From: Thermomicrobium sp. 4228-Ro
Lineage (GTDB): Bacteria; Chloroflexota; Chloroflexia; Thermomicrobiales; Thermomicrobiaceae
NCBI RefSeq assembly: GCF_026241205.1
Contig: NZ_JAPFQM010000001.1
Coordinates: 496,001 to 560,000 of the forward strand
DNA length: 64,000 nt
Reading direction: 5' to 3'
A program made the translations under genes and the position numbers. Numbering within the stretch: the stretch's first letter is position 1; each line of letters starts with the position of its first letter. Shown one piece after another: positions 27,153 to 45,029 of this stretch. The notes under the pieces are model-generated. The model did not search any database. It worked only from the letters and a program-made list of their open reading frames with translations, and was not told the origin of the DNA.

Positions 27153-27181
27153 TTGACACAGGATGCCGTGCCGAGCATCCT
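27153..27181 (+). promoter_or_regulatory. Promoter of the alternative complex III operon
   Basis: Perfect -35 TTGACA (27153-27158), 17-base spacer, weak -10 CATCCT (27176-27181). The start point should be near 27188. A weak -10 with a strong -35 suits regulated expression. Confidence 0.5.
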
Positions 27182-27189
27182 ACGTGTGG

Positions 27190-27207
27190 TTGTGAAGGCG
27201 CTCACAG
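27190..27207 (+). promoter_or_regulatory. Rex-type operator TTGTGA-N6-TCACAG
   Basis: TTGTGAAGGCGCTCACAG matches the Rex consensus TTGTGA-N6-TCACAA at 11 of 12 positions. It begins 9 bases after the -10, so a bound repressor would block initiation. Rex is a redox (NADH/NAD+) sensing repressor of respiratory genes and is encoded at 44292-45029. Confidence 0.6.
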
Positions 27208-27317
27208 AAGGAGCGCCGCGCGCCACCCGCCCGTGACGGGAGAGCCAGGGGCGTCACGGTGCGACGGACGGGAAGGGATGGGCCGAGCTCCCCGCTCGGT
27301 GTCGTGGAGGAATGGAG

Positions 27318-27608
27318 ATGACACCGGCAAATGTCACCCCCGCGCAGTGGGAACAGATCCACCAGGCACTGATCTGGTTCTGGGCATTCCTCGCCTGTGT
27401 CGTCGCCTTCGCGGCGAATATGCTCGTCGCGTACGCCATTATCCCGTCGCTCGTCTCGACGCGTGATCTTCCCGCGAAGGTCAGCGCGATTCGCCCGATC
27501 CTCTTCGTGCTCGCTGCCGTCTTCCTGCTCGCTGCCCTCTATGCCTTCGTTAATATCGTGAACGGCATCCAGGTGCTCTACGAGATCTGGCCGCGTCGCT
27601 GGATCTAA
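27318..27608 (+). CDS. Small two-helix membrane protein at the head of the complex III operon
   Basis: 96 residues (98 from ATG 27312). The ATG at 27318 is favoured because GGAGG lies 8 bases upstream of it. Two hydrophobic helices (about 12-38 and 56-80) join through a short loop with TRDLPAKVSAIRP. No match to a named subunit is recognised. Its position as first gene before actA suggests a small subunit or assembly factor. Confidence 0.75.
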   Translation: MTPANVTPAQWEQIHQALIWFWAFLACVVAFAANMLVAYAIIPSLVSTRDLPAKVSAIRPILFVLAAVFLLAALYAFVNIVNGIQVLYEIWPRRWI

Positions 27609-27666: not shown

Positions 27667-28200
27667 ATGCGTTACGCGCGGCTCCTAGTGTTCGTACTCG
27701 TCGTGCTCGTCATCATGGCGATTCCGCTCGCGCTCGTGTTGGCACGGAGTTACTTCCTGTCGCCGACCGCGCAACCGGTCAAGGCCCAGCCGATTCAGTT
27801 CCCGCACCAGGTGCATGTGCAGGCGATCGGGCTCGACTGCACCTACTGCCACCGCAACGCGACGACCTCGGCGCAGGCGACGCTTCCACCCATCGAGCTC
27901 TGCATGCAGTGTCACAAGATCATCCCCGCGCAGGGGCGCCCGGAACTCGAGAAGCTCGTCTCCGCCTTCGAGCAGAACCAGCCGATCCTCTGGAACAAAG
28001 TCCACCAGCTTCCCGATCACAGCCACTTTGTGCACTCCGTGCATCTGAGCTTCGGTTTCCAGTGCTCGACCTGCCATGGTAATGTCGGTGCGATGGGGAA
28101 GCCTGGCGTGCAGCAGGTTCGCGACTTGCGCATGGGTGACTGCATCACCTGTCATCAGCAGAACGGAGCCCGCGTCGACTGTTCTGTTTGCCACTACTAG
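27667..28200 (+). CDS. actA: Alternative complex III subunit ActA, pentaheme cytochrome c
   Basis: 177 residues with an N-terminal membrane anchor (about 5-27) and five CxxCH heme motifs at residues 58, 79, 133, 159 and 172 (CTYCH, CMQCH, CSTCH, CITCH, CSVCH). It belongs to the cytochrome c7/c3 fold group. It faces outside and carries electrons from the ActB iron-sulfur clusters to the monoheme subunit. The heme number is the same as in ActA of characterised complexes. Confidence 0.92.
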   Translation: MRYARLLVFVLVVLVIMAIPLALVLARSYFLSPTAQPVKAQPIQFPHQVHVQAIGLDCTYCHRNATTSAQATLPPIELCMQCHKIIPAQGRPELEKLVSAFEQNQPILWNKVHQLPDHSHFVHSVHLSFGFQCSTCHGNVGAMGKPGVQQVRDLRMGDCITCHQQNGARVDCSVCHY

Positions 28201-28251
28201 TCCGAGGTGACCCGCGAAGAGATTGTGGGGAGGCGGACGTTGGAGAAGGGC

Positions 28252-30495
28252 ATGCGACGACGTGAGTTCCTCAAGGTCGCGGCGACGTCGGCAACCGGTG
28301 CCGTGCTCTTCGCTGGGTGCGGCCGGATCGGTGACGGCGTTCCCGAGACCGAGTTCAAGATCGCGCAGCCGGTCCATACGCCGAACGATTGGGTTTACGG
28401 TCGGGATGCCTGGTTCGCGACAGCAGCCCCTCCCGACCAGGGAGGTTACGGCCTGATCGTCCGCGTGTTCGAGGGCCGAGCGAAGAAAGTGGACGGAAAC
28501 CCCGATTTTCCAGGCATCGCCGGGAAGAGCGACGCGCGCGCCCAGGCACTGGTCCAAGAGCTGTACCATCCCGACCGGATCGCGGGACCACAGCGCGCGG
28601 CTTCCCGCGGCAGTGGGCAATTCCAGCAGATTTCGTGGGACAGCGCGCTCCAGGAAGTCGCACAGGTCCTCCGCGAGAACGGTGGGGATCGTGCCGTCCT
28701 CATAACCGGCCGTCCGTCCAGCTCTCAGGCAGCCATCATCAATGCGTTCCGGCAGGCGACCGGTATCCGTCATGCCATTCTCGAACCGGACGAGTTCGTC
28801 GTTCTGCGCACAGCGATGCAGCGCCTGTTCGGCACGAGCATGCTGCCGTATCCGGATCTCGGGAATGCGCCCTTCCTCCTGAACTTCAGTGCCGACTTCT
28901 TACACGGCTGGATCGCACCGGTCGCTTTGGCCCGGGCCTACGGCGAATTTCGTCAGGGTCGGCCGGGCAAGCGCGGCCTCTACTATCATGTTGGCCCCCG
29001 CCTTTCGGCGACGGCAGCCAACGCCGACCGCTGGTTCCCCATCACACCGGGGACCGAAGGGTTGGTCGCGCTCGCGATCGCCAACGTCTTGCTGACCGAG
29101 GGGAGTATCCCGGCTGACACGTTCCGTCCCTACCTCACGGCTCTCGGCATCGACGAGACACGCTTGACCAGCGAGTTCACTCCCGAGCGAGCAGCCGAGA
29201 CGAGCGGCCTGAACGCTGAGCAGATCCGCGAAATCGCCCACGCGCTGGTCGAGCACCAACCGGCCGTCGTGATCGCGGGTACCAGTGCGGCAGCTGCCAC
29301 GAACGGCTTCTTCAACCTGGTCGCCTGCTTCGGCTTGAACCTGCTCTTGAGTAACCTCAATCAACCGGGCGGGCTGCTGCTCAACCCGGATCCGCCGCTC
29401 GCCGAGTTGCGCGTTCCCCAGGACGCGGTCCTCAGTGAGCGCCAGTGGGCTGAGCTGTTCGAGCAGGTTCGTGCAGGCTCGATCTCGACGGTTCTCGTCT
29501 ACCGTGCGAATCCGGTCTACAGCTTGCCACCCGCGGTCGGCGCAACCGATGCACTGCGCGCGGCGCAGCATGTCGTGAGCTTCTCACCGTTCTTCGACGA
29601 AACCACCCAGCTTGCAGATTTCGTCCTTCCCGACCTGGCCTGGCTGGAGCAGTGGGGCCTCCAGGTTCCCGACCCAGGTCCGGGATATGCGACCGTTGCG
29701 ATCCAGCAGCCGGTCGTCCAACCGTTCGTCGACGGGCGTGCCTTCGGCGACGTGCTCATCCAGCTCGCGCAGCAGCTGGGGCATGCACTCCCGTGGGGCT
29801 CGCAGGAGGAGGCAACCAAAGCTCTGGCGGTGCAGCTGCGCCGACTCAGCGGTGGCAGCGTGCCTGGAGCCAACGACAAGGAGTTTCTCGTTCATCTTCA
29901 GGCCCAGGGAGGGTGGTGGAGCGAACAGCTCCGTGGCTCAGCGACGACACCAGCAACCAGGATCACCAGTCCGCGCGGACCGGAATTCATTGGTGACACC
30001 AGCCAATACCCATCCGTTCTCCTGCCGTACCCATCGCACACCCTCGGATACGGTGAACTCGCTCACCTCCCGTGGCTGCAAGGGCTGCCCGAACCGATCA
30101 GCACCAATGTCTGGCAGACGTGGCTCGAAGTCGCACCGCGAACGGCTGACGAGCTCGGGCTGACGACCGAAGATGTCGTGCGCCTCACGACGCCGCAGGG
30201 AACCGTCGAGTTGCCCGTCTACGTCAATCCGGCTGCGCAACCAGGTGTGATCGCGATTCCCTTCGGACAGGGCCACACTGCTTACGGTCGGTACGCCGAA
30301 GGGCGCGGGGTCAATCCCTTGACGGTCGTCGCGCCGCAGACCGATCCCGATACGGGCACGTTGGCATGGAGTGCGACGCGCTGTCGGATCGAAAAGACCG
30401 GTCGCCGGATGCGTCTCGCCCGCTTCGAGGGGAACGTCCCGGCGTTCCAGCTGGAGGAGTTCCCGATCGTGCGCGTCATGGCGCCATCGGCGTGA
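28252..30495 (+). CDS. actB1: Alternative complex III subunit ActB, molybdopterin-oxidoreductase-like part
   Basis: About 747 residues. The N-terminus RRREFLKVAATSATGAVLFAGC combines a twin-arginine signal with a lipobox (GC), so it is an exported, possibly lipid-anchored protein. The body is a molybdopterin oxidoreductase fold, but the N-terminal FeS cysteines and a Mo ligand are absent, as in known ActB, which binds no cofactor in this half. ATG 28252 (GGAGAAGGG upstream) is preferred over GTG 28207. In other organisms this part is fused to the ferredoxin-like part; here the two are separate genes. Confidence 0.9.
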   Translation: MRRREFLKVAATSATGAVLFAGCGRIGDGVPETEFKIAQPVHTPNDWVYGRDAWFATAAPPDQGGYGLIVRVFEGRAKKVDGNPDFPGIAGKSDARAQALVQELYHPDRIAGPQRAASRGSGQFQQISWDSALQEVAQVLRENGGDRAVLITGRPSSSQAAIINAFRQATGIRHAILEPDEFVVLRTAMQRLFGTSMLPYPDLGNAPFLLNFSADFLHGWIAPVALARAYGEFRQGRPGKRGLYYHVGPRLSATAANADRWFPITPGTEGLVALAIANVLLTEGSIPADTFRPYLTALGIDETRLTSEFTPERAAETSGLNAEQIREIAHALVEHQPAVVIAGTSAAAATNGFFNLVACFGLNLLLSNLNQPGGLLLNPDPPLAELRVPQDAVLSERQWAELFEQVRAGSISTVLVYRANPVYSLPPAVGATDALRAAQHVVSFSPFFDETTQLADFVLPDLAWLEQWGLQVPDPGPGYATVAIQQPVVQPFVDGRAFGDVLIQLAQQLGHALPWGSQEEATKALAVQLRRLSGGSVPGANDKEFLVHLQAQGGWWSEQLRGSATTPATRITSPRGPEFIGDTSQYPSVLLPYPSHTLGYGELAHLPWLQGLPEPISTNVWQTWLEVAPRTADELGLTTEDVVRLTTPQGTVELPVYVNPAAQPGVIAIPFGQGHTAYGRYAEGRGVNPLTVVAPQTDPDTGTLAWSATRCRIEKTGRRMRLARFEGNVPAFQLEEFPIVRVMAPSA

Positions 30496-30523
30496 GCGGG
30501 AAGAGGGGAAAAGGACGGACATC

Positions 30524-31252
30524 ATGCCACGCTGGGGAATGGTGATCGATCTGGATCGCTGCATCGGTTGCGAGGCGTGCGTCGTCGCCTGCCAGGCGGA
30601 AAACAACGTGCCGATCAATACGGAGGATGTTTACCACCAGCGCCGCGCTATCGCCTGGATCCGCGTCGAGCGGTACTGGGAGGGCGAATATCCCAACATC
30701 AAGGCACGCTACATTCCCGTACCGTGTATGCAATGCACGAACGCGCCCTGCGAGCCGGTCTGCCCGGTTTACGCCACCTACCACACGACCGAGGGCATCA
30801 ACATGCAGGTCTATAACCGCTGCATCGGCACCCGCTACTGCGCGGTGAACTGCCACTGGCACGTCCGGTTCTTCAACTTCTGGGAACCGAAGTGGCCTGA
30901 CTCGTTGAAGAACCAGCTCAATCCTGATGTGACGGTGCGCAGTCGCGGAGTGATGGAGAAGTGCAATTTCTGCGTCCACCGTATCGTCAAAGCCGAGCAG
31001 AAAGCCAAGGTCGAGAAACGGGCACTCCGCACGGATGAAGTGACGACCGCCTGCGCGCAAGCCTGCCCGACGAACGCGATCGTCTTCGGCGATCTGGACG
31101 ACCCGAACAGCGCTGTCAGCAAGTTGCTCGCGCAAGCCGAGCAGGAGGGGCGCGTCTATCGCCTGCTCGAGGATCTGGGCACCGACCCGAAGGTCTATTA
31201 CTTGAAGAAGATCGACGTCGCGGCCGCAGCAGAGCCGGCCGCGACGCACTGA
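30524..31252 (+). CDS. actB2: Alternative complex III ActB, iron-sulfur part (4Fe-4S ferredoxin-type)
   Basis: 242 residues. Cysteine groups are at 13-16-19-23 (CIGCEACVVAC), 68-71-76-80 (CMQCTNAPCEPVC), 100-106-110, and 147-150-177-181 (CNFC, CAQAC). These fit three 4Fe-4S clusters and one 3Fe-4S cluster, as in ActB of solved complexes. The chain has no signal peptide, so export must be piggy-back with the TAT-bearing partner encoded immediately upstream. ATG 30524 follows AAAGGACGG. Confidence 0.9.
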   Translation: MPRWGMVIDLDRCIGCEACVVACQAENNVPINTEDVYHQRRAIAWIRVERYWEGEYPNIKARYIPVPCMQCTNAPCEPVCPVYATYHTTEGINMQVYNRCIGTRYCAVNCHWHVRFFNFWEPKWPDSLKNQLNPDVTVRSRGVMEKCNFCVHRIVKAEQKAKVEKRALRTDEVTTACAQACPTNAIVFGDLDDPNSAVSKLLAQAEQEGRVYRLLEDLGTDPKVYYLKKIDVAAAAEPAATH

Positions 31253-31283: not shown

Positions 31284-32678
31284 ATGGCGACGCACGGTCA
31301 CGCACACGGGCACGAACTCCAACGAACCTGGGAGCTCGCTCCGTCCGACGTCCTCAACGCTGCCCTTGGCTGGATCCGCTCGATCGGCGCTGGACGGCGT
31401 ACGCTCTTCCTCGTCAGTGCGGCACTTTTCGTCCTGGGTATTCTGGCTCTGCTCGCATTCCCGCTGCGTCAGGGTTTCGCTGATCGCCAGGCCTGGACGT
31501 ATGTCGCGGTCGCCTTTTTGTATCTCATGTCGACTGCAGCCGCAGCACCTGCACTCTCCACCGCACTCCGGGTCGCCCGGAGCCACTGGCGACGACCGGT
31601 CAACCGCGCGTCGGAGATCTGGGGCGTGACACTCATCATTCCGCTCATTCTCTACCTCTTGCTCCTCCCGACCTTTCCCGGAACCGAGGACCGTCTGTCC
31701 ATCTGGTTCGGCTGGCCGCTCTCCCCATGGCTGTGGGGAGCCATCCTGATGCTGGCGCTGACGGGCGCTGGCTATCTCTTCGCCTGGTTCAGCAGTCTGC
31801 CGGACCTGGCGATCGTCCGCGACCACGGCTCACCGGCGCAGCGCGGGCTGGCAGCCTGGCTCAGCCGTGGCTGGATCGGGTCGCACCGCCAGTGGCGCAT
31901 GTACGAGAAGGTCGTCAACAACATCGGCGTCCTCTACGTCCTCATCTACGTGCCGGTCATGACGGTCCTCGCCTCGGACTTCATCATCGCGCTGATACCC
32001 GGTTACTTCACCGCCGTGTTCCCGGCGTACTTCACCATCACCTCGTTCCAGGCTGGGATCGCCCTCACGATCGTTACCATGGCGGTACTCCGACGCTGGG
32101 GCGGCCAAGCAGACTACCTCGGTCGCGAGCAGTTCTGGGCACTCGGGAAACTCCTCCTGGCATTCTCGTTGCTCTGGTTCTACTTCTGGTGGTCGGAGTT
32201 CATCATCTTCTGGTACGGTCGAACGCCCCGTGAGATCAACGTCCTCAAGCTCATCATGGCCGAGACCTACCGCTGGCCCTTCATCCTGTCCTTCGCGATG
32301 AATTTCGCGCTTCCGCTCCTGACCCTCATGTGGAACCCCATTCGGCGCAGCATTACCGGCCCCACTGTCGTGGCCTGCATCGTCCTCGTCGGCAATCTGA
32401 TCGATCGTATCCGGCTCACCTCCGCTGCCTTCTCGCAACCGGATAGTGCCCTCTTGGGACACGCACACGAGCTGCATGAGGTTCCAGCTGCGTACATCCC
32501 CGGCATCTCGGACATCGTCATTGTGGTCGGCATGGTCGCTGGCGCCCTCATGCTGGTGCTCTGGGCGACACGCTATCTGCCGTTCCCCTCGGTCGCGGAG
32601 GTCGTCGGCGGTCTCTGGTTGCGGGCGCACAAGCCGTTCAAGCACGCCCGCCTGATCGTCATCGGTAAACCGGAGTGA
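31284..32678 (+). CDS. actC: Alternative complex III subunit ActC (NrfD/PsrC-like quinol-oxidising membrane subunit)
   Basis: 464 residues, about ten transmembrane helices, NrfD family. It carries the quinol site next to the iron-sulfur subunit. The N-terminus is His-rich (ATHGHAHGHE) and could bind metal. A GWIGSHRQWRMYEKVVNN cytoplasmic loop matches the second NrfD gene in register, so the two are paralogues. It sits between the iron-sulfur gene and the second NrfD. Confidence 0.88.
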   Translation: MATHGHAHGHELQRTWELAPSDVLNAALGWIRSIGAGRRTLFLVSAALFVLGILALLAFPLRQGFADRQAWTYVAVAFLYLMSTAAAAPALSTALRVARSHWRRPVNRASEIWGVTLIIPLILYLLLLPTFPGTEDRLSIWFGWPLSPWLWGAILMLALTGAGYLFAWFSSLPDLAIVRDHGSPAQRGLAAWLSRGWIGSHRQWRMYEKVVNNIGVLYVLIYVPVMTVLASDFIIALIPGYFTAVFPAYFTITSFQAGIALTIVTMAVLRRWGGQADYLGREQFWALGKLLLAFSLLWFYFWWSEFIIFWYGRTPREINVLKLIMAETYRWPFILSFAMNFALPLLTLMWNPIRRSITGPTVVACIVLVGNLIDRIRLTSAAFSQPDSALLGHAHELHEVPAAYIPGISDIVIVVGMVAGALMLVLWATRYLPFPSVAEVVGGLWLRAHKPFKHARLIVIGKPE

Positions 32679-32726: not shown

Positions 32727-34100
32727 ATGCAAGAGCGACACCGGCTCGGTGAAGAAGAAATCACGCGCGAACTCTTCCGGCCGCTGGTCACCACCACACC
32801 GATGATGTGGGTCGGCTTCATCGGTCTGGGGGCGGTACTGGCGATCTTCGTGTTCGCGGTCAGCTGGATGTTCTACTGGGGTCTGGGTGTCACCGGACTC
32901 AGTCGCCCCAATATGTGGGGCTTCATGATCGTCAACTTCGTCTTCTGGATCGGTATCAGTCACGCGGGCGTGATGATCTCGGCCATCCTGCGCCTCACCC
33001 AGGCTGAATGGCGACGCCCGGTCACGCGCGCGGCCGAGGTAATGACCATCTTCAGCCTCATGACCGCGATGCTCCACCCGGTCATCCACACCGGTCGCCC
33101 CTGGCGCACGCTCTACTGGGTCTTCCCGTACGACTTCTGGCGAAACCTGTGGCCGGACGTCCGCGGTCCGCTCGTCTGGGACCCGAGCGCGATCCTCACC
33201 TACCTCACCGGGAGTACGCTCTTTCTCTACACGACCATGATTCCGGATATGGCGCTCGCGCGCGACCGCACCACCGGCTGGCGGCGGGTCCTCTACACGA
33301 TCCTCGCACTCGGCTGGCGCGGGAACGAGCGCCAGTGGAAGATGCAGACGATCGCTGGGTTCCTTCTCTCCGGTCTCATCTTGCCGGTCTTCGTCTCCGT
33401 CCACTCCATCGTCTCCTGGGACTTCGCGGTCTCGCTCGTGCCGACCTGGCATGCAACCGTCTTCGCGCCCTACTTCGTCATCGGAGCGATTCACTCCGGT
33501 GTCTCCGCCGTCGTGACGCTGATGGCACTGATGCGCTGGTTGTTCCGTTTCGACCACTACATCCGACTGGAACATTTCGATGCCATCGGCCGTCTGCTCA
33601 TCGCGGTCGGTACTGGCTGGCTGTGGTTCTTCCTGCTCGACATCTTCTTCGCGATCTATCCGCAGGAAGCCCGTGAGCTCGAGATCATGCAGTTCCGCCT
33701 CTTCCAGTGGCCTTTCAACGTGCTGACGGCGTTGATCTTCATCTTCGGGTACTTCATTCCGGTTCCCATCTGGATCTTTCAGCGCTTCCGCCGCAACGTG
33801 AAGATCATGTTCTGGACGTCGATCCTGGTGAACGTCGGCATGTGGGCCGAGCGGTACTGGCTCATCAAGCCTGGTCTCATGCGGAAGTACGAATTTACCT
33901 TCGACTGGAACTGGTACCGACCGTCGATCGTCGAGCTCAGCATCGTCCTCGGTTCCTTCGCGCTCGTTGGATTCCTGTTGCTCGTCTTCTCCAAGATCTT
34001 CCCGCCCATCTCGGTCTGGGAAGAGAAGGAGGGTCAGCACTTCGCACAGCAGCTGCAGGTCGGTAAGCGTGTCGTCAACGCGATCGTGCGCGAGTTCTAG
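32727..34100 (+). CDS. actF: Alternative complex III second NrfD-like membrane subunit (ActF/ActC paralogue)
   Basis: 457 residues, about ten transmembrane helices. NrfD family features: ISHAGVMISAILRLTQAEWR and GWRGNERQWKMQTIAG. In other ACIII operons the second NrfD protein (ActF) follows actE; here it comes directly after actC and before actD. Which of the two NrfD proteins holds the quinol site cannot be told from sequence alone. No protein product is lacking from the core set. Confidence 0.85.
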   Translation: MQERHRLGEEEITRELFRPLVTTTPMMWVGFIGLGAVLAIFVFAVSWMFYWGLGVTGLSRPNMWGFMIVNFVFWIGISHAGVMISAILRLTQAEWRRPVTRAAEVMTIFSLMTAMLHPVIHTGRPWRTLYWVFPYDFWRNLWPDVRGPLVWDPSAILTYLTGSTLFLYTTMIPDMALARDRTTGWRRVLYTILALGWRGNERQWKMQTIAGFLLSGLILPVFVSVHSIVSWDFAVSLVPTWHATVFAPYFVIGAIHSGVSAVVTLMALMRWLFRFDHYIRLEHFDAIGRLLIAVGTGWLWFFLLDIFFAIYPQEARELEIMQFRLFQWPFNVLTALIFIFGYFIPVPIWIFQRFRRNVKIMFWTSILVNVGMWAERYWLIKPGLMRKYEFTFDWNWYRPSIVELSIVLGSFALVGFLLLVFSKIFPPISVWEEKEGQHFAQQLQVGKRVVNAIVREF

Positions 34101-34133: not shown

Positions 34134-34673
34134 ATGGCGATCCGTGAAGTACTCGGTCTCTACCGCGATCTCGACTCTGCTGTCGCCGCGGCCGACGCGC
34201 TGCGCGAGGCGGGCTTCAGTCGGAGCGAGTTCGAAGTGCTCTCCAATGCCCCCTACCCGGAGGGAACGTTCGGAGAGGAATCGGGTATCCACCGGCTGTT
34301 CGTCTTCCCGCTCATCGGTGCTGCCTGTGGCTTTGCAGCAGGTCTGCTGATCACGGGCGGGACACAGCTTTCCTTCCCGCTCCTCACGGGCGGAAAACCT
34401 CTCCTTTCCATTCCACCGATGATCATCATCATGTACGAGGGCACGATGCTCGGTGCCCTGATCTTCACGGTGCTTGGAGTTCTTTTCGAATCGCGACTCC
34501 CCTGGATCGGTCGTGCACTGTATGATCCTCGCATTACTGCGGGATACATCGGCATCCTGGTGCGAACCGCCCCGGAGCGCGAGGCCAAGGCCATCGAAGC
34601 GCTTCGCAAGGCGAACCCGGAGGATATCCTGACCGAGAACGGGACTGTCGGGAAGCAGCCGGCACGGAGCTAG
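34134..34673 (+). CDS. actD: Alternative complex III subunit ActD (DUF3341)
   Basis: 179 residues with an N-terminal ferredoxin-like domain (VLGLYRDLDSAVAAADALRE) and two central transmembrane helices followed by a second small soluble part. This is the DUF3341 pattern of ActD, which stabilises the membrane module. 33 bases separate it from the NrfD gene. Confidence 0.88.
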   Translation: MAIREVLGLYRDLDSAVAAADALREAGFSRSEFEVLSNAPYPEGTFGEESGIHRLFVFPLIGAACGFAAGLLITGGTQLSFPLLTGGKPLLSIPPMIIIMYEGTMLGALIFTVLGVLFESRLPWIGRALYDPRITAGYIGILVRTAPEREAKAIEALRKANPEDILTENGTVGKQPARS

Positions 34674-34700: not shown

Positions 34701-35297
34701 ATGGCTCGATACCGTGTGTACGTGCACAAGGCACGACGCCTCGTGCTCGGCCTGCTGGTCGGAACGGCTCTCGCCGTGGTCGCGAGCGCGTGTGCCTCGA
34801 CGAACACCTATCCGATCGACTTCTTCAGCGAGATGCACTATCAGAAGTCGTTCCGCGCTCAGGAGCCACCACGACTCGATATCCCGGCTGGGGTGGTTCC
34901 CACCTCAGGCGGCGAGCCACAGTACACACTCGAGGAAGCCCGTAACCTGCAAAACCCGTTCGCGAACGATCCGCAAGCAGCAGCTCGTGGTCAACAGCTC
35001 TATCAAGTGAACTGCGTTGCTTGTCATGGGCCGAACGGTCAAGGCAACGGCCCGCTCTCTGCCTACTGGAAAGCTGCCCAGGGCGCTGTTCCACCAGCGA
35101 ATCTCAAGGATCCTGCCATCGTCTCCCGCACAGACGGTGAACTGTACTGGATCCTGACTAACGGCTACACCTCACCGCAGAATCAAGTGCAATATCCTGG
35201 TGGACTCACGAACATGCCGGCATTCGGGAAGGTACTCACACCCGAGCAACGCTGGGAGCTCGTTTCGTACATCCGGCAACTGCAGCAACAACCATAG
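34701..35297 (+). CDS. actE: Alternative complex III subunit ActE, monoheme cytochrome c lipoprotein
   Basis: 198 residues. Lipoprotein signal with lipobox cysteine at 31 (VVASAC). One heme motif CVACH (residues 105-109) in VNCVACHGPNGQGNG; a distal methionine is likely in NMPAFGKVL. It is thought to pass electrons from ActA to the terminal oxidase or a soluble carrier. Last gene of the operon, followed by a terminator. Confidence 0.9.
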   Translation: MARYRVYVHKARRLVLGLLVGTALAVVASACASTNTYPIDFFSEMHYQKSFRAQEPPRLDIPAGVVPTSGGEPQYTLEEARNLQNPFANDPQAAARGQQLYQVNCVACHGPNGQGNGPLSAYWKAAQGAVPPANLKDPAIVSRTDGELYWILTNGYTSPQNQVQYPGGLTNMPAFGKVLTPEQRWELVSYIRQLQQQP

Positions 35298-37137: not shown

Positions 37138-38103
37138 TCAGCAGTCGGCCACTGCCGGCACGACCTCCCGCGCGATCGACTCCAGGGCGTCGCTGTCGTC
37201 CAAGTCGAACGTCTGCAGCATGACCCGCTGCACGCCGATCGCCGCGCGTGCCCGGAGTTGCTCGACTATCTCGTCGACCGTGCCAACGAGCCAGGAGCGC
37301 TTTCTGGCCTCGACGATGACCTGATCGGCGGGCATTTCCTGCCAGAGCGGGAACCAGTGCTTGAGGCGCTCAGCGCGTTCACGCAATTCGCTCGCATCAC
37401 GGCCGATCAGATGCGCGACCATCCACGACCGCAGGATCGTGTGCGGATCGCGGCCCAGGACTCGGCAATGTTCGTCGAGCACTTCCATCTTCCGGCGGTG
37501 CTCGTCGAGATCGACATTGGTGACGTTCCACTCGGCTGCATACCGTGCGACCATCCGCAGGGTTCGCTGTTCGCCGCGCCCGCCGATCACGATCGGCACG
37601 CCGCTCTCGCGGAGCGGGCGCGGCCGAAGCACCGCATCGCGCAATCGGTAGAACCGCCCGTCGAAGGACACGCGTTCCCCGCTCCAGAGCAGGCGAATCA
37701 CTTCGAGCGCTTCCTCCATACGGTCCATTCGCTCGCGCAGTGAGAGCAAGGGAAAGCCGAACGCCGCATGCTCACGCTCGTACCAACCCGCACCCACGCC
37801 CAGCACATAGCGCCCACCCGAGAGGTGGTCGAGCGCGACAGCGTGCTGGGCCAGTTCGACCGGATGCCGGAAGCTGACCGGCGAAACGAGTTGACCGAAC
37901 GTGATACGTTGAGTCTGAAGCGCCACCGCCGTCAGCGACGGCCAGAGCGCGAGTGTTTCTCGCTGGATCACTCCGAGCACTGAGAACAGATGGTCGGACC
38001 GCCAGAGCGAATCGAACCCGACTTCCTCGGCCAACGCCGTGACGCGCTGCCAACGCTCCCACGTCACAGCCTCTTGCCCTTCGACCATGATGCCGATGCG
38101 CAT
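37138..38103 (-). CDS. LLM-class (luciferase-like) F420/flavin-dependent oxidoreductase, copy 1
   Basis: 321 residues, TIM barrel of the luciferase-like monooxygenase family. MRIGIMVEGQEAVTWERW, DSLWRSDHLFSVLG and LSGGRYVLGVGAGWYEREH are conserved in all three tandem copies. The last motif shapes the cofactor pocket in F420-dependent members, so F420 or FMN is likely; which one is unknown. 54 bases downstream of copy 2. Confidence 0.85.
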   Translation of the reverse strand: MRIGIMVEGQEAVTWERWQRVTALAEEVGFDSLWRSDHLFSVLGVIQRETLALWPSLTAVALQTQRITFGQLVSPVSFRHPVELAQHAVALDHLSGGRYVLGVGAGWYEREHAAFGFPLLSLRERMDRMEEALEVIRLLWSGERVSFDGRFYRLRDAVLRPRPLRESGVPIVIGGRGEQRTLRMVARYAAEWNVTNVDLDEHRRKMEVLDEHCRVLGRDPHTILRSWMVAHLIGRDASELRERAERLKHWFPLWQEMPADQVIVEARKRSWLVGTVDEIVEQLRARAAIGVQRVMLQTFDLDDSDALESIAREVVPAVADC

Positions 38104-38157
38104 GTGTCCCCCTTCGGACTGGACCGAGCGGTGATCTGGCCTGGATACCAGTTTGGC

Positions 38158-39123
38158 TCACTCCGTGACGAGAGGCACGACCTCGCGCGCGAGCAAATCC
38201 AGCCCATCCAGGTCGTCGAGATCGAACATATGGAGCTGGATGCGTTCGACGCCGAGGGCACCCCAATTCCGGATCTGGGCAGCGATCTCCCGAGGTGTCC
38301 CCACGAGCATCCAGCGTCGCCGCGACTCCCCGAGGATTCGATCGGGATCGACTGCGCCCGGATCGAGGCCGCGCCAGGCAGCCATCTTGCGTGCCTTCTC
38401 GCGGAGTTCGACCTGATTCCGCCCGATGAGGTACGTCAACATCAGCGTCCGCTCGATCATTCGCGGGTCGCGACCGATCGCTCGGCAATAGTCCTCCAGC
38501 AAGCGATTCTTGCGAACGAAGCCGTCTGGGTCGGTGAAACCGGGATTCCACTCATCGGCGAACTCAGCCACGATCCGGAGCGTCTTCTGCTCACCCCCGC
38601 CGCCGATCAGGATCGGTACTCCCTCGGGGCGCAGCGGTGGCGGCCGCAACACCGCACCATCCAACCGGAAGAAGCGGCCCGAGTACGTGACCGGCTCTCC
38701 GGTCCACAACTGCCGGATAATTTCCAAGGCCTCACGAAGGCGAGCCAGCCGCTGGCCCGGGGGCGCTAAGACGAAACCGAAGGCCTCGTGCTCCCGCTGC
38801 TGCCAGCCTGCTCCGACTCCGAGGATATACCGTCCCCCGGAGAGGTGATCGAGCGCCACGGCATTCTGTGCGAGCTCGACTGGATGCCGGTACGTCGTCG
38901 GCGAGACGAGCTGCCCCAAGCGGACCCGCGACGTCTTCAGCGCTGCTGCCGTCAGTGCCGGCCACATCGCGAGTGACTCCTTGACGAGCCCCGGAATGAC
39001 GGTCCACACGTGATCCGAGGTCCAAATCGACTCGAATCCGACTCGTTCCGCAAAGTCCACGACACGTAACCAGCCGTCCCAGGTGACGTCCTCCTGGATG
39101 GCCACCATCACCCCGAGCTGCAT
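38158..39123 (-). CDS. LLM-class F420/flavin-dependent oxidoreductase, copy 2
   Basis: 321 residues, closely similar to the flanking copies through its whole length, including WTSDHVWTVIPG, LSGGRYILGVGAGWQQREH and the C-terminal DLDDLDGLDLLAREVVP. The most divergent of the three near the substrate side (VWTVIPGLVKES instead of LFSVLG/LFSVVG), suggesting a different substrate. 112 bases after copy 3, a gap rich in A and T for this genome, where a separate promoter could lie. Confidence 0.85.
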   Translation of the reverse strand: MQLGVMVAIQEDVTWDGWLRVVDFAERVGFESIWTSDHVWTVIPGLVKESLAMWPALTAAALKTSRVRLGQLVSPTTYRHPVELAQNAVALDHLSGGRYILGVGAGWQQREHEAFGFVLAPPGQRLARLREALEIIRQLWTGEPVTYSGRFFRLDGAVLRPPPLRPEGVPILIGGGGEQKTLRIVAEFADEWNPGFTDPDGFVRKNRLLEDYCRAIGRDPRMIERTLMLTYLIGRNQVELREKARKMAAWRGLDPGAVDPDRILGESRRRWMLVGTPREIAAQIRNWGALGVERIQLHMFDLDDLDGLDLLAREVVPLVTE

Positions 39124-39235
39124 CGCTTCACGCCCTACCCTTCCCGCACCACGACGATCGCATGATATTCAGTATCGAATTACCAGGCGACACGAAGCAC
39201 CACCAGCATATTAGTCGTCGCCTCGCTTCCTCACG

Positions 39236-40210
39236 TCACACGTACGGGAGAACGTCTTCGGCCAGTAACTCGATCTGCTCCGTATCGTCGAGGTCAAGCG
39301 TCTGCAGCATCACGAGGTCAACTCCGAGCGATCCCCAGTATCGGAGCTGGTCGACGATCTCCGCCGGTCGCCCCACGAACCACCAGCGTCGGCGTAGTTC
39401 GGCGAGGAATTCGTCCGGCTCGTATCGCCTCGTGAAGTACAGCGGCTGCTCACCCGTCAAGTAGTCCTGCAGCCGCATGGCGCGCCGCCGGAGCTCGTCA
39501 TGCGTCCGGCCGATCACATACCCGGCCATCAACGTCCGGCGAATCGTGCTCGGGTCGCGACCGAGTGCCTCACAATACTCTCGCAGGCGCTCGTCCTTCC
39601 GTCGGAATCCGTCCGGATCCGTAAAACCCGGATTCCATTCGGTCGCGAATTCGGCCACGAGGCGCAGGGTTTTCCGCTCTCCTCCACCCCCGATCATGAT
39701 CGGCACGCCGTCCGGTCGACTCGGTCGAGGACGAAGCACAGCGTCCCCGAGCTGGAAGTGCTTGCCCGAAAAATGGACGCGTTCCCCACTCCATAGGAGA
39801 CGCACGATGCACAGCGCTTCTTCGAGCCGTTCCAACCGTTCCGCTACCGGAGGCAGCCGAAAACCGAAAGCACGATGCTCGCGCTCGAACCAACCAGCGC
39901 CGATACCCAGAACATACCGCCCGCCGGAGAGATGGTCGAGTGCCACCGCATTCTGAGCCAGCTCCACCGGGTGTCGGAAGGTCACGGGCGAGACCAGTTG
40001 CCCGAAACGGATCCGCCGCGTCCGCAGCGCAACCGCGGTCAGTGATGGCCAGAGCGCCAGCGATCCGCGATCGGCCGCACCGACGACCGAGAAGAGATGA
40101 TCTGACCGCCAGAGCGAATCGAAACCGAGCGACTCAGCCAGATCGACGATCCGCAACCACCGATCCCAGGTAACGTCCTCCTGCCCTTCGACCATGATGC
40201 CGAGCCGCAT
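39236..40210 (-). CDS. LLM-class F420/flavin-dependent oxidoreductase, copy 3
   Basis: 324 residues, same family: GIMVEGQEDVTWDRWLRIV, SLWRSDHLFSVVGAADRG, LSGGRYVLGIGAGWFEREH. It starts nine bases after the ybaB stop, so the LLM genes are probably the tail of a recN-ybaB transcript. No function is known for this arrangement. Confidence 0.85.
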   Translation of the reverse strand: MRLGIMVEGQEDVTWDRWLRIVDLAESLGFDSLWRSDHLFSVVGAADRGSLALWPSLTAVALRTRRIRFGQLVSPVTFRHPVELAQNAVALDHLSGGRYVLGIGAGWFEREHRAFGFRLPPVAERLERLEEALCIVRLLWSGERVHFSGKHFQLGDAVLRPRPSRPDGVPIMIGGGGERKTLRLVAEFATEWNPGFTDPDGFRRKDERLREYCEALGRDPSTIRRTLMAGYVIGRTHDELRRRAMRLQDYLTGEQPLYFTRRYEPDEFLAELRRRWWFVGRPAEIVDQLRYWGSLGVDLVMLQTLDLDDTEQIELLAEDVLPYV

Positions 40211-42444: not shown

Positions 42445-44208
42445 GTGGTGAACGATCGGATGACCCAGGATGTCTGGCGAGTCGCCCTCGCCCAGGTCGA
42501 CCCGACAGTTGGCGATTTCGCGGGCAACCTCCGACTCGTCCGTGACTACGCTCGGCAGGCTGCGGAGCTGGGAGCACAGATCATCGCTTTTCCTGAATTG
42601 GTCATTACGGGATATCCACCGGAAGATCTTCTCCTGAAGGTCAGCTTCATCGAAGCAGCACGGAGAGCGCTGTTCCAGCTCGTCGACACGGTGCCGGATC
42701 GCGTGCTGATCGTCGGCGTACCGTGGGCCCAAGGCGGCATGCTTTTCAACAGTGCAGCTGTGCTCGCCCGTGGCGATCTCGTCGCCGTCGTACCGAAGCA
42801 CCACCTGCCGACCTACGGCGTCTTCGACGAAGACCGCTATTTTGCGCGCGGCACCGAGACGTTTCGCTTCCTCTGGGGGAATCTCCGCTTCGGTGTGACG
42901 ATCTGTGAGGATATCTGGTATCCGATCGGACCAGCCAGCAGTCTGGCAACGCACGGTATCGATCTCCTCGTGAACATCAATGGCTCTCCGTATCACCGTG
43001 GGAAGTGGCACCAGCGCCAGACCATGCTCCAGACACGGGCCTCCGACTATGGCTGTTACCTGGCGTACGTCAACATGGTCGGGGGGCAGGACGAACTCGT
43101 CTTCGACGGGAATAGCCTCGTCCTCGATCCGAACGGCAATGTTCTCTTTCGCGGAGCATCGTTCGAGGAAGATCTGATTGTCGTCGATATCCCGGTTACT
43201 CGTGTCCTTTCCAGCTGGCTGCATGACCCGCGCCGGCGCTGGCTGGCTCGCCTCGAGTCCCACGCTCACCTCCCAGTGAGCGACCACCCGATTCCCTTAC
43301 CGGTTCCCGAGCATCCACTTCCGCCACTGCCGGACCATCTGCGGCGCCCGCGTGTGCCCTTGGACGGAGTAGCCGAAGTCTATCGAGCGCTCGTCACCGG
43401 CGTTCGCGACTATGTCCGCAAGACCGGCTTCCGCACAGCGGTGATCGGCTTATCAGGGGGGATCGACTCTTCTCTGACTGCCTGTATCGCGGCTGACGCA
43501 CTGGGCCCGGAGAACGTCACTGGCCTCTCGATGCCGAGCCGCTATTCCTCGCGCCACAGCATCGATGACGCCGAAGCACTCGCCCGCAATTTGGGTATCC
43601 ATTTCCATATCGTTCCAATCGAGACGGTGCACCACGCCTTCCGCGAGATCCTGGCTCCGCTCGGCAACCAGCCGGAGGAACCTGACGTCGCGGACGAGAA
43701 CCTGCAGGCGCGCATCCGTGGCACGATCCTCATGACATACTCCAATCGCTTCGGCCCGATCGTCCTGACCACGGGCAATAAATCGGAGATGGCATGTGGG
43801 TACTCGACATTGTACGGTGATATGGCAGGCGGTTTCGGCGTTCTCAAAGACGTACCGAAGTTGCTGGTCTACGAACTGGCACGGTACCGCAACTCGATTT
43901 CGCCCGTCATACCAGAGCGAGTCTTCACGAAGCCACCCTCCGCTGAACTACGGCCGAACCAGAAGGACGTCGACACCCTACCGCCGTTCGAAATTTTGGA
44001 TCCGTTGCTGGAACTGTATGTCGAACACGACATGAGTCGCGAGGAACTGATCCGTCAGGGCTTCGACCCTGCGATCGTCGATCGCGTCATCGCGATGGTC
44101 GACCGAGCCGAGTACAAACGTCGGCAGGCACCGCCCGGCGTGAAACTCTCGCCCCGTGCATTCGGCCGCGATCGGCGGCTGCCCATCGCCAACTGGTTCC
44201 GGGGCTGA
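42445..44208 (+). CDS. nadE: Glutamine-dependent NAD+ synthetase
   Basis: 587 residues. N-terminal nitrilase-type glutaminase domain: FPELVITGYPPEDLL with the catalytic Glu, KHHLPTYGVFDE with Lys and GVTICEDIW with the Cys. C-terminal synthetase domain with ATP pyrophosphatase loop GLSGGIDSSLTA. Makes NAD from deamido-NAD, ATP and glutamine. GTG at 42445 (or 42448) follows GGGGAGGG; the conserved domain begins at about residue 10. Adjacent to the NAD(H)-sensing regulator Rex, on the same strand. Confidence 0.96.
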   Translation: MVNDRMTQDVWRVALAQVDPTVGDFAGNLRLVRDYARQAAELGAQIIAFPELVITGYPPEDLLLKVSFIEAARRALFQLVDTVPDRVLIVGVPWAQGGMLFNSAAVLARGDLVAVVPKHHLPTYGVFDEDRYFARGTETFRFLWGNLRFGVTICEDIWYPIGPASSLATHGIDLLVNINGSPYHRGKWHQRQTMLQTRASDYGCYLAYVNMVGGQDELVFDGNSLVLDPNGNVLFRGASFEEDLIVVDIPVTRVLSSWLHDPRRRWLARLESHAHLPVSDHPIPLPVPEHPLPPLPDHLRRPRVPLDGVAEVYRALVTGVRDYVRKTGFRTAVIGLSGGIDSSLTACIAADALGPENVTGLSMPSRYSSRHSIDDAEALARNLGIHFHIVPIETVHHAFREILAPLGNQPEEPDVADENLQARIRGTILMTYSNRFGPIVLTTGNKSEMACGYSTLYGDMAGGFGVLKDVPKLLVYELARYRNSISPVIPERVFTKPPSAELRPNQKDVDTLPPFEILDPLLELYVEHDMSREELIRQGFDPAIVDRVIAMVDRAEYKRRQAPPGVKLSPRAFGRDRRLPIANWFRG

Positions 44209-44291
44209 GCCCGGATTTGCACGAAACGACGCGATACTGTACAGTTGCCGCGCACGACGCATTGCAACGCTCGCGTGTATCCGGAACGAAC

Positions 44292-45029
44292 ATGAACGGG
44301 GGCACAGCAGCGGTGCGCAACGGCGCGGTACCTGACGTCGTCATCCGACGACTTCCACTGTATTTGCGAACCTTGCGCCAGCTCCGGCGAGATGGTTGGC
44401 AAGCGATCTCTTCGGAGGAGCTGGCGAAGTTCCTCGGTACGACGGCTGCCCAGGTTCGTCGCGATTTCTCGTACTTCGGTCGATTCGGAAAACAAGGCTA
44501 CGGCTACGATGTCGAGACGCTCATCCGTGAACTCGAAGCCATCCTGAACCTCGACCGAACCTGGAACATTGCCCTGGTGGGCTACGGCAACCTCGGGCAG
44601 GCCATCGCTCACCACCGCGGGTTCGAACCGAACGGGTTCCGGATCGCTGCGATATTCGCGAAGAGCCCTGAGCACGTTGGGCAAGTCGTGAACGGCATCG
44701 TCGTCCGGCCTGAGACGGAGATCGAGCGTGTCGTGCGCGAACTCGCGATTCGGATCGGTATCCTCGCTGTACCAGCCGAGGCAGCGCAGGAAGTCGCGGA
44801 CAAGCTGATCGCGGGGGGAGTGCGTGCTCTCCTCAACTATGCGCCCGTCACCCTCCACGTGCCACCCGGCATTGTCGTCCGCGATATCGACCCGATCGGT
44901 GCACTGCAGAGCATGACGTACTATCTCGCATCGCGGGAACCGGGCTTCGACACGGACGGGACACCAGCACCCGAAAGTCTCGACCTCACGACAGTAGTTG
45001 CCGAAGTGAAACGTCAGGCATCGCGCTGA
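44292..45029 (+). CDS. rex: Redox-sensing transcriptional repressor Rex
   Basis: 245 residues. Winged-helix DNA-binding domain (PDVVIRRLPLYLRTLRQLRR; SSEELAKFLGTTAAQVRRDFSYFG) followed by a Rossmann NADH-binding domain (ALVGYGNLGQAIAHH, motif GxGxxG) and a C-terminal helix with PVTLHVPPGIVVRDIDP. NADH binding releases Rex from operators of the TTGTGA-N6-TCACAA type. Start ATG 44292; an in-frame TTG at 44217 would add 25 unconserved residues. A matching operator precedes the complex III operon. Confidence 0.94.
   Translation: MNGGTAAVRNGAVPDVVIRRLPLYLRTLRQLRRDGWQAISSEELAKFLGTTAAQVRRDFSYFGRFGKQGYGYDVETLIRELEAILNLDRTWNIALVGYGNLGQAIAHHRGFEPNGFRIAAIFAKSPEHVGQVVNGIVVRPETEIERVVRELAIRIGILAVPAEAAQEVADKLIAGGVRALLNYAPVTLHVPPGIVVRDIDPIGALQSMTYYLASREPGFDTDGTPAPESLDLTTVVAEVKRQASR

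Follow-up and report, generated by a model that had tools for sequence, protein, structure and literature searches.

The palindrome at the start of the alternative complex III (ACIII) operon of Thermomicrobium sp. 4228-Ro (G000, the genome under study) is very probably an operator of Rex, a redox-responsive repressor, and it appears to be part of a respiratory regulon in which ACIII and cytochrome c oxidase join the targets known for Rex. ACIII stands in for the bc1 complex in many bacteria. Rex is the best explanation for the palindrome because the motif, its position, and the list of target genes all match. An earlier note on this DNA had proposed that Rex control extends to ACIII; at the level of sequence, this proposal holds, given the conserved sites, their placement on core promoters, and the absence of a CRP/FNR protein. 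Such control would place ACIII under the NADH sensor Rex along with ATP synthase and cytochrome oxidase, and candidate sites can be named for each. The literature searched, which stopped short of the main comparative work on Rex, yielded neither a described regulator of ACIII nor a relevant paper on Rex together with ACIII. Rex control in this bacterial family seems to be undescribed, and Rex sites at ACIII may have been predicted before, e.g. in a comparative Rex study or in RegPrecise Chloroflexi.

Within the window (the whole 64,000-nt stretch of DNA that was analysed), the putative operator follows P1, a predicted strong promoter (Table 1); transcription starts here and below are predicted from the positions of -10 elements. 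The sequence, the coordinates, and the single mismatch to TTGTGA-N6-TCACAA reported earlier for this site proved exact on re-check. The site had also been placed 9 bases after a -10 element whose -35 is perfect; the -35 element is indeed a perfect TTGACA, and the gap between the -10 element and the site is 8 bases rather than 9. In relatives, CATGCT, CATCCT, or a near variant is present at the position equivalent to the -10 element. The site is an inverted repeat close to the fuller Rex consensus, TTGTGAA-N4-TTCACAA, from which it differs at two positions (at one position in the version found in genus g3), and its core is an exact TGTGA-N6-TCACA, the sole exact instance in G000. Downstream, the first gene of the operon encodes a small membrane protein for which no family match was found and which is possibly an extra ACIII subunit. 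The iron-sulfur actB reading frame truly starts further in than listed, close to where the preceding gene ends. Three luciferase-like monooxygenase genes lie in a row on the minus strand at 37138-40210.

Table 1. Features of the ACIII promoter region and operon, the rex gene, and the other conserved Rex-type sites of G000 (positions in the window unless a contig, C1 or C6, is given)
Feature	Position	Strand	Remarks
-35 element of P1, TTGACA	27153-27158	+	conserved in g1-g4
-10 element of P1, CATCCT	27176-27181	+	spacer to -35 element, 17 bp
Putative Rex-type operator, TTGTGAAGGCGCTCACAG	27190-27207	.	about +1 to +19 of predicted P1 transcript
Left hairpin arm, GGCGCTC	27197-27203	+	inside operator; predicted 5' mRNA hairpin
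Right hairpin arm, GAGCGCC	27211-27217	+	arms co-vary between genera
Small membrane protein, first gene of operon	27318-27608	+	conserved before actA in relatives
actA, multihaem cytochrome c	27667-28200	+	
actB, molybdopterin-oxidoreductase-like	28207-30495	+	
Iron-sulfur part of actB	30371-31252	+	reading frame as listed
ActC/ActF-type membrane subunit	31284-32678	+	assigned by position and hydrophobicity; no family match
NrfD-like membrane subunit (ActC/ActF type)	32727-34100	+	
actD	34134-34673	+	PF11821
Cytochrome c (ActE type)	34701-35297	+	
Rex repressor gene	44217-45029	+	directly after NAD synthase gene; the one Rex gene of G000
cox site, TCGTGACAGCATTCACCA	C1:289665		before coxB; over -35 element and spacer
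atp site, TTGTGATAGGATGCGCAA	C1:1772596		before atpI-atpB; over -10 element
Small membrane protein site, TCGTGAAGGGATGCGCAA	C6:166522		over -35 element

The ACIII site owes its significance to its conservation and its placement at a promoter, not to motif counts. Allowing one mismatch to TTGTGA-N6-TCACAA, it is the only match in the window and in G000. The next-best matches in the window have three mismatches, which bears out the earlier remark that no comparable second site is present. Window matches with up to three mismatches total 8, compared with 11.6 expected. In the whole of G000, there is no excess over the reversed control pattern, either at up to one mismatch (1 forward match versus 3 for the control) or for the long consensus at up to three mismatches (21 versus 21). 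Counts inside one genome were therefore dropped as evidence, the reversed control being equally or more frequent. Taken singly, a lone site in one genome could be due to chance; it is conservation that makes the site convincing as a sequence signal. Across eight genomes, the long Rex consensus at up to two mismatches gives 41 matches versus 18 for the control, and with one genome per genus, the numbers are 21 versus 4 (p = 0.0005). Of these 21 matches, 13 have a gene starting no more than 250 bp downstream (p ~1e-11); such positions make up 5.8% of the window, which is the expected share. When the ACIII sites are removed, this still holds for 10 of 18 (p ~1e-8). The 250-bp criterion was chosen after looking at the data, gene positions were judged by inspecting gene calls, and the calls outside the window are mechanical.

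The start region of ACIII was compared across 21 genomes; named records with identical sequences place three of the genera (g1 is Thermomicrobium, g3 goes with Thermalbibacter, and g2 with Sphaerobacter). The sequence found in G000 directly follows the P1 -10 element in all six g1 genomes that have ACIII. At the same place, a perfect TTGTGAAGACGCTCACAA is present in four of four g3 genomes, TTGTGAAGACGTTCACGG in g4, and T[TC]GTGAAAGCGATCAC[AG]C in three g2 genomes. Among representatives of these four genera, 13 of the 18 operator positions are identical, versus 0 of 40 positions upstream and 4 of 80 downstream; thus, the DNA flanking the operator is near random between genera. The earlier note had named a lack of conservation upstream of actA in relatives as grounds for giving up the Rex reading, and the scan instead finds the motif in four genera. 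In a sister family, the genome G025 carries TTGATAATTCTTTCACAA upstream of its ACIII genes. The ACIII site is absent from g5 although Rex is present, and g6, which also has Rex, shows just a TTGTGG half-site at the right place. Elsewhere in the class, ACIII matches outside family f1 and G025 are too distant for promoter comparison.

Besides being conserved in relatives, the site is common to other redox and respiratory genes. G000 has four conserved sites, located at the ACIII, cox, and atp promoters and at the promoter of a small membrane protein, and for each of the last three, other genera have a site at the corresponding gene. Going by predicted starts, all four overlap core promoter elements, the ACIII site lying over the start itself; they therefore occupy positions suited to a repressor. 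The coxB-coxA site is present in g2 and g4, degenerate in g1, and represented by TTGTGGAATGTTTCACAA in G025; the atpI-atpB site is found in g1, g2, and g5, and an H+-pyrophosphatase site in g5. The site at the small membrane protein next to argG is present in g1, g3, and g4. In relatives, further sites precede a NuoG-like (complex-I-like) gene, aconitase, and isocitrate lyase with malate synthase, and a sigma factor gene is also among those with a Rex-type site; the genes behind the sites are mostly respiratory or central. Some sites in g2-g4 lie just upstream of a -35 element rather than over it. Because the atp site overlaps an extended -10 element in some of its bases, constraint on the promoter may account for part of its conservation. 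Perfect sites in G010 (L047) and G017 (L045) were not counted, having no clear downstream gene, and a GTGTGAACTACTTCACGC site of G000 (L217) resembles the hppA site of g5 but has no clear promoter around it. As for the protein next to argG, the G000 locus (L226, C6:164500-168500) encodes at ~1751-1954, on the minus strand, a one-helix membrane protein of ~67 residues, which is perhaps a respiratory accessory subunit. A Rex-type site also precedes a gene for a 600-residue AAA/STAND ATPase and is kept in three g3 genomes (L082, L083, L084).

The Rex gene that the earlier note had reported in the same window was recovered (Table 1); its true start is probably further in than that of the open reading frame. 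The protein of G000 scores 141-161 bits against solved Rex structures. Two drafts, G001 (90% complete) and G017 (87%), are the only genomes of the family in which Rex was not found; all those that are at least 91% complete have it, and the Rex recognition helix, Q(I/V)RRD, is invariant wherever readable in the family. When the protein is compared with Thermotoga Rex, whose DNA-contact residues are taken from PMC8836258, the equivalents of Arg12, Ser33, Glu34, Gln46, Arg48, Ser52, Gly58, Gly61, and Tyr64 are kept, and the key contact Lys49 is replaced family-wide by Arg. G000 thus encodes a Rex with most of the DNA-contact residues expected of a protein that recognizes such an operator. The NAD synthase gene directly precedes rex (together, 42445-45029), and thus the two are probably co-transcribed; the window search, at up to three mismatches, found no Rex-type site at nadE-rex.

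We infer from the Rex family that the protein binds these sites, represses by binding, and is released by NADH. At a low NADH/NAD+ ratio, a Rex dimer would cover the predicted P1 start and keep the ACIII operon from being transcribed; once electrons accumulate and the NADH level climbs, Rex would be released and ACIII made. Through sites over the -35 element, the -10 element, or the start, Rex would also control the cox and ATP synthase operons as well as the small membrane protein. Shared control of these promoters would allow the later respiratory chain to be adjusted together.

The ACIII site has a second, predicted property at the level of RNA. The spacer of the operator can pair with a downstream segment in 14 of 14 genomes examined, and the arms are GGCGCTC/GAGCGCC in g1, AAGACGC/GCGTCTT in g3, AAGACGTTC/GGACGTCTT in g4, and GCGATCA/TGATCGC in g2. 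Shuffling gives p values for the pairing of the arms that are mostly 0.00-0.03 each, and folding z-scores are -2.3 to -4.6 in g2-g4; in g1, three of six genomes fold better than their shuffles. Compensatory changes speak for a structured 5' RNA in several genera and do so weakly in half of g1. Since the length of the hairpin loop varies widely between genera, an RNA hairpin suits these data better than a second protein site. It is possible, although rather unlikely, that one 18-bp element doubles as the DNA operator for Rex and as the left arm of a hairpin at the 5' end of ACIII mRNA. In g2, g3, and g4, the operator is followed at a distance of 7-21 bases by a second promoter, P2 (TTGACA, a 17-bp spacer, and CATGCT, CATCCT, or CATGTT), and is thus flanked by P1 upstream and P2 downstream in these genera; in L028, L030, and L033, the tandem P2 is ~450-550 bp upstream of actA. 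No P2 is seen in g1. P1 would be the Rex-gated promoter of the tandem pair, and if the double role is real, g2-g4 would have a redox-gated promoter ahead of a second promoter, with the leader structure on the gated transcript only.

The same arms, different yet complementary in g1, g3, g4, and g2, could mean that the conserved element works at the RNA level, as a 5' stem-loop of the P1 transcript with a role in stability or processing, and that the palindrome is a by-product. This is very improbable. The best-conserved half-sites, TTGTGA and TCACAA, are at most partly in the stem; the fold fails to reach significance in three of the six g1 genomes, among them G000; and no Rfam match was found. 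Nor is the palindrome confined to transcribed positions, since at the cox, small-membrane-protein, and other promoters it also occurs upstream of the -10 element, where it is not transcribed. For this reason, the hairpin does not replace the reading of the palindrome as an operator.

Among DNA-binding proteins, CRP-type regulators govern respiratory genes in other bacteria, and the consensus of CRP/GlxR-type sites, TGTGA-N6-TCACA, is matched exactly by the core of the ACIII site. A regulator of the CRP/FNR family could thus be considered as the protein that binds here, but this is most unlikely. G000, which is 99.9% complete, has one cyclic-nucleotide-binding domain, located in a CBS-DUF294 protein that is not a transcription factor; its four weak Crp-HTH matches are GntR, MarR, DtxR, and MarR proteins, and no regulator that combines a cNMP domain with a Crp-HTH is present in this genome. 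G009, the genome richest in sites, lacks any cyclic-nucleotide-binding domain. In addition, the outer TT...AA and the A at position 7 suit Rex, and the ACIII site covers the start, at +1, rather than an activator position. There is little chance that a different repressor of this bacterial family binds the palindrome: Rex binding is itself deduced from sequence, which leaves such a protein some room, but the motif, targets, and operator positions agree with those of Rex regulons already described (PMC5355995), and Rex occurs throughout the family.

The Rex reading has its closest parallel in Streptomyces avermitilis, where atp, nuo, and hppA are proven targets that Rex represses by binding sites with 1-3 mismatches over the promoter core (PMC5355995). 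The two systems are alike in the operator consensus, TTGTGAA-N4-TTCACAA with 1-3 mismatches, in targets that include ATP synthase, complex I, and H+-pyrophosphatase, and in the placement of operators over the -35/-10 elements or the start; the atpI site of S. avermitilis, TTGTGATACGGTTCACGA, is much like the atpI site here (PMC5355995). They differ in that S. avermitilis has cytochrome bd together with a rex-hem operon that is autoregulated (PMC5355995), whereas the sites described here are at ACIII and cytochrome c oxidase. The operator of Staphylococcus aureus Rex, TTGTGAAW4TTCACAA, has the same inverted repeat architecture (PMC2883068). However, the targets in that bacterium are anaerobically induced genes, and its operator spacer is AT-rich, while the spacer here is GC-rich (PMC2883068).
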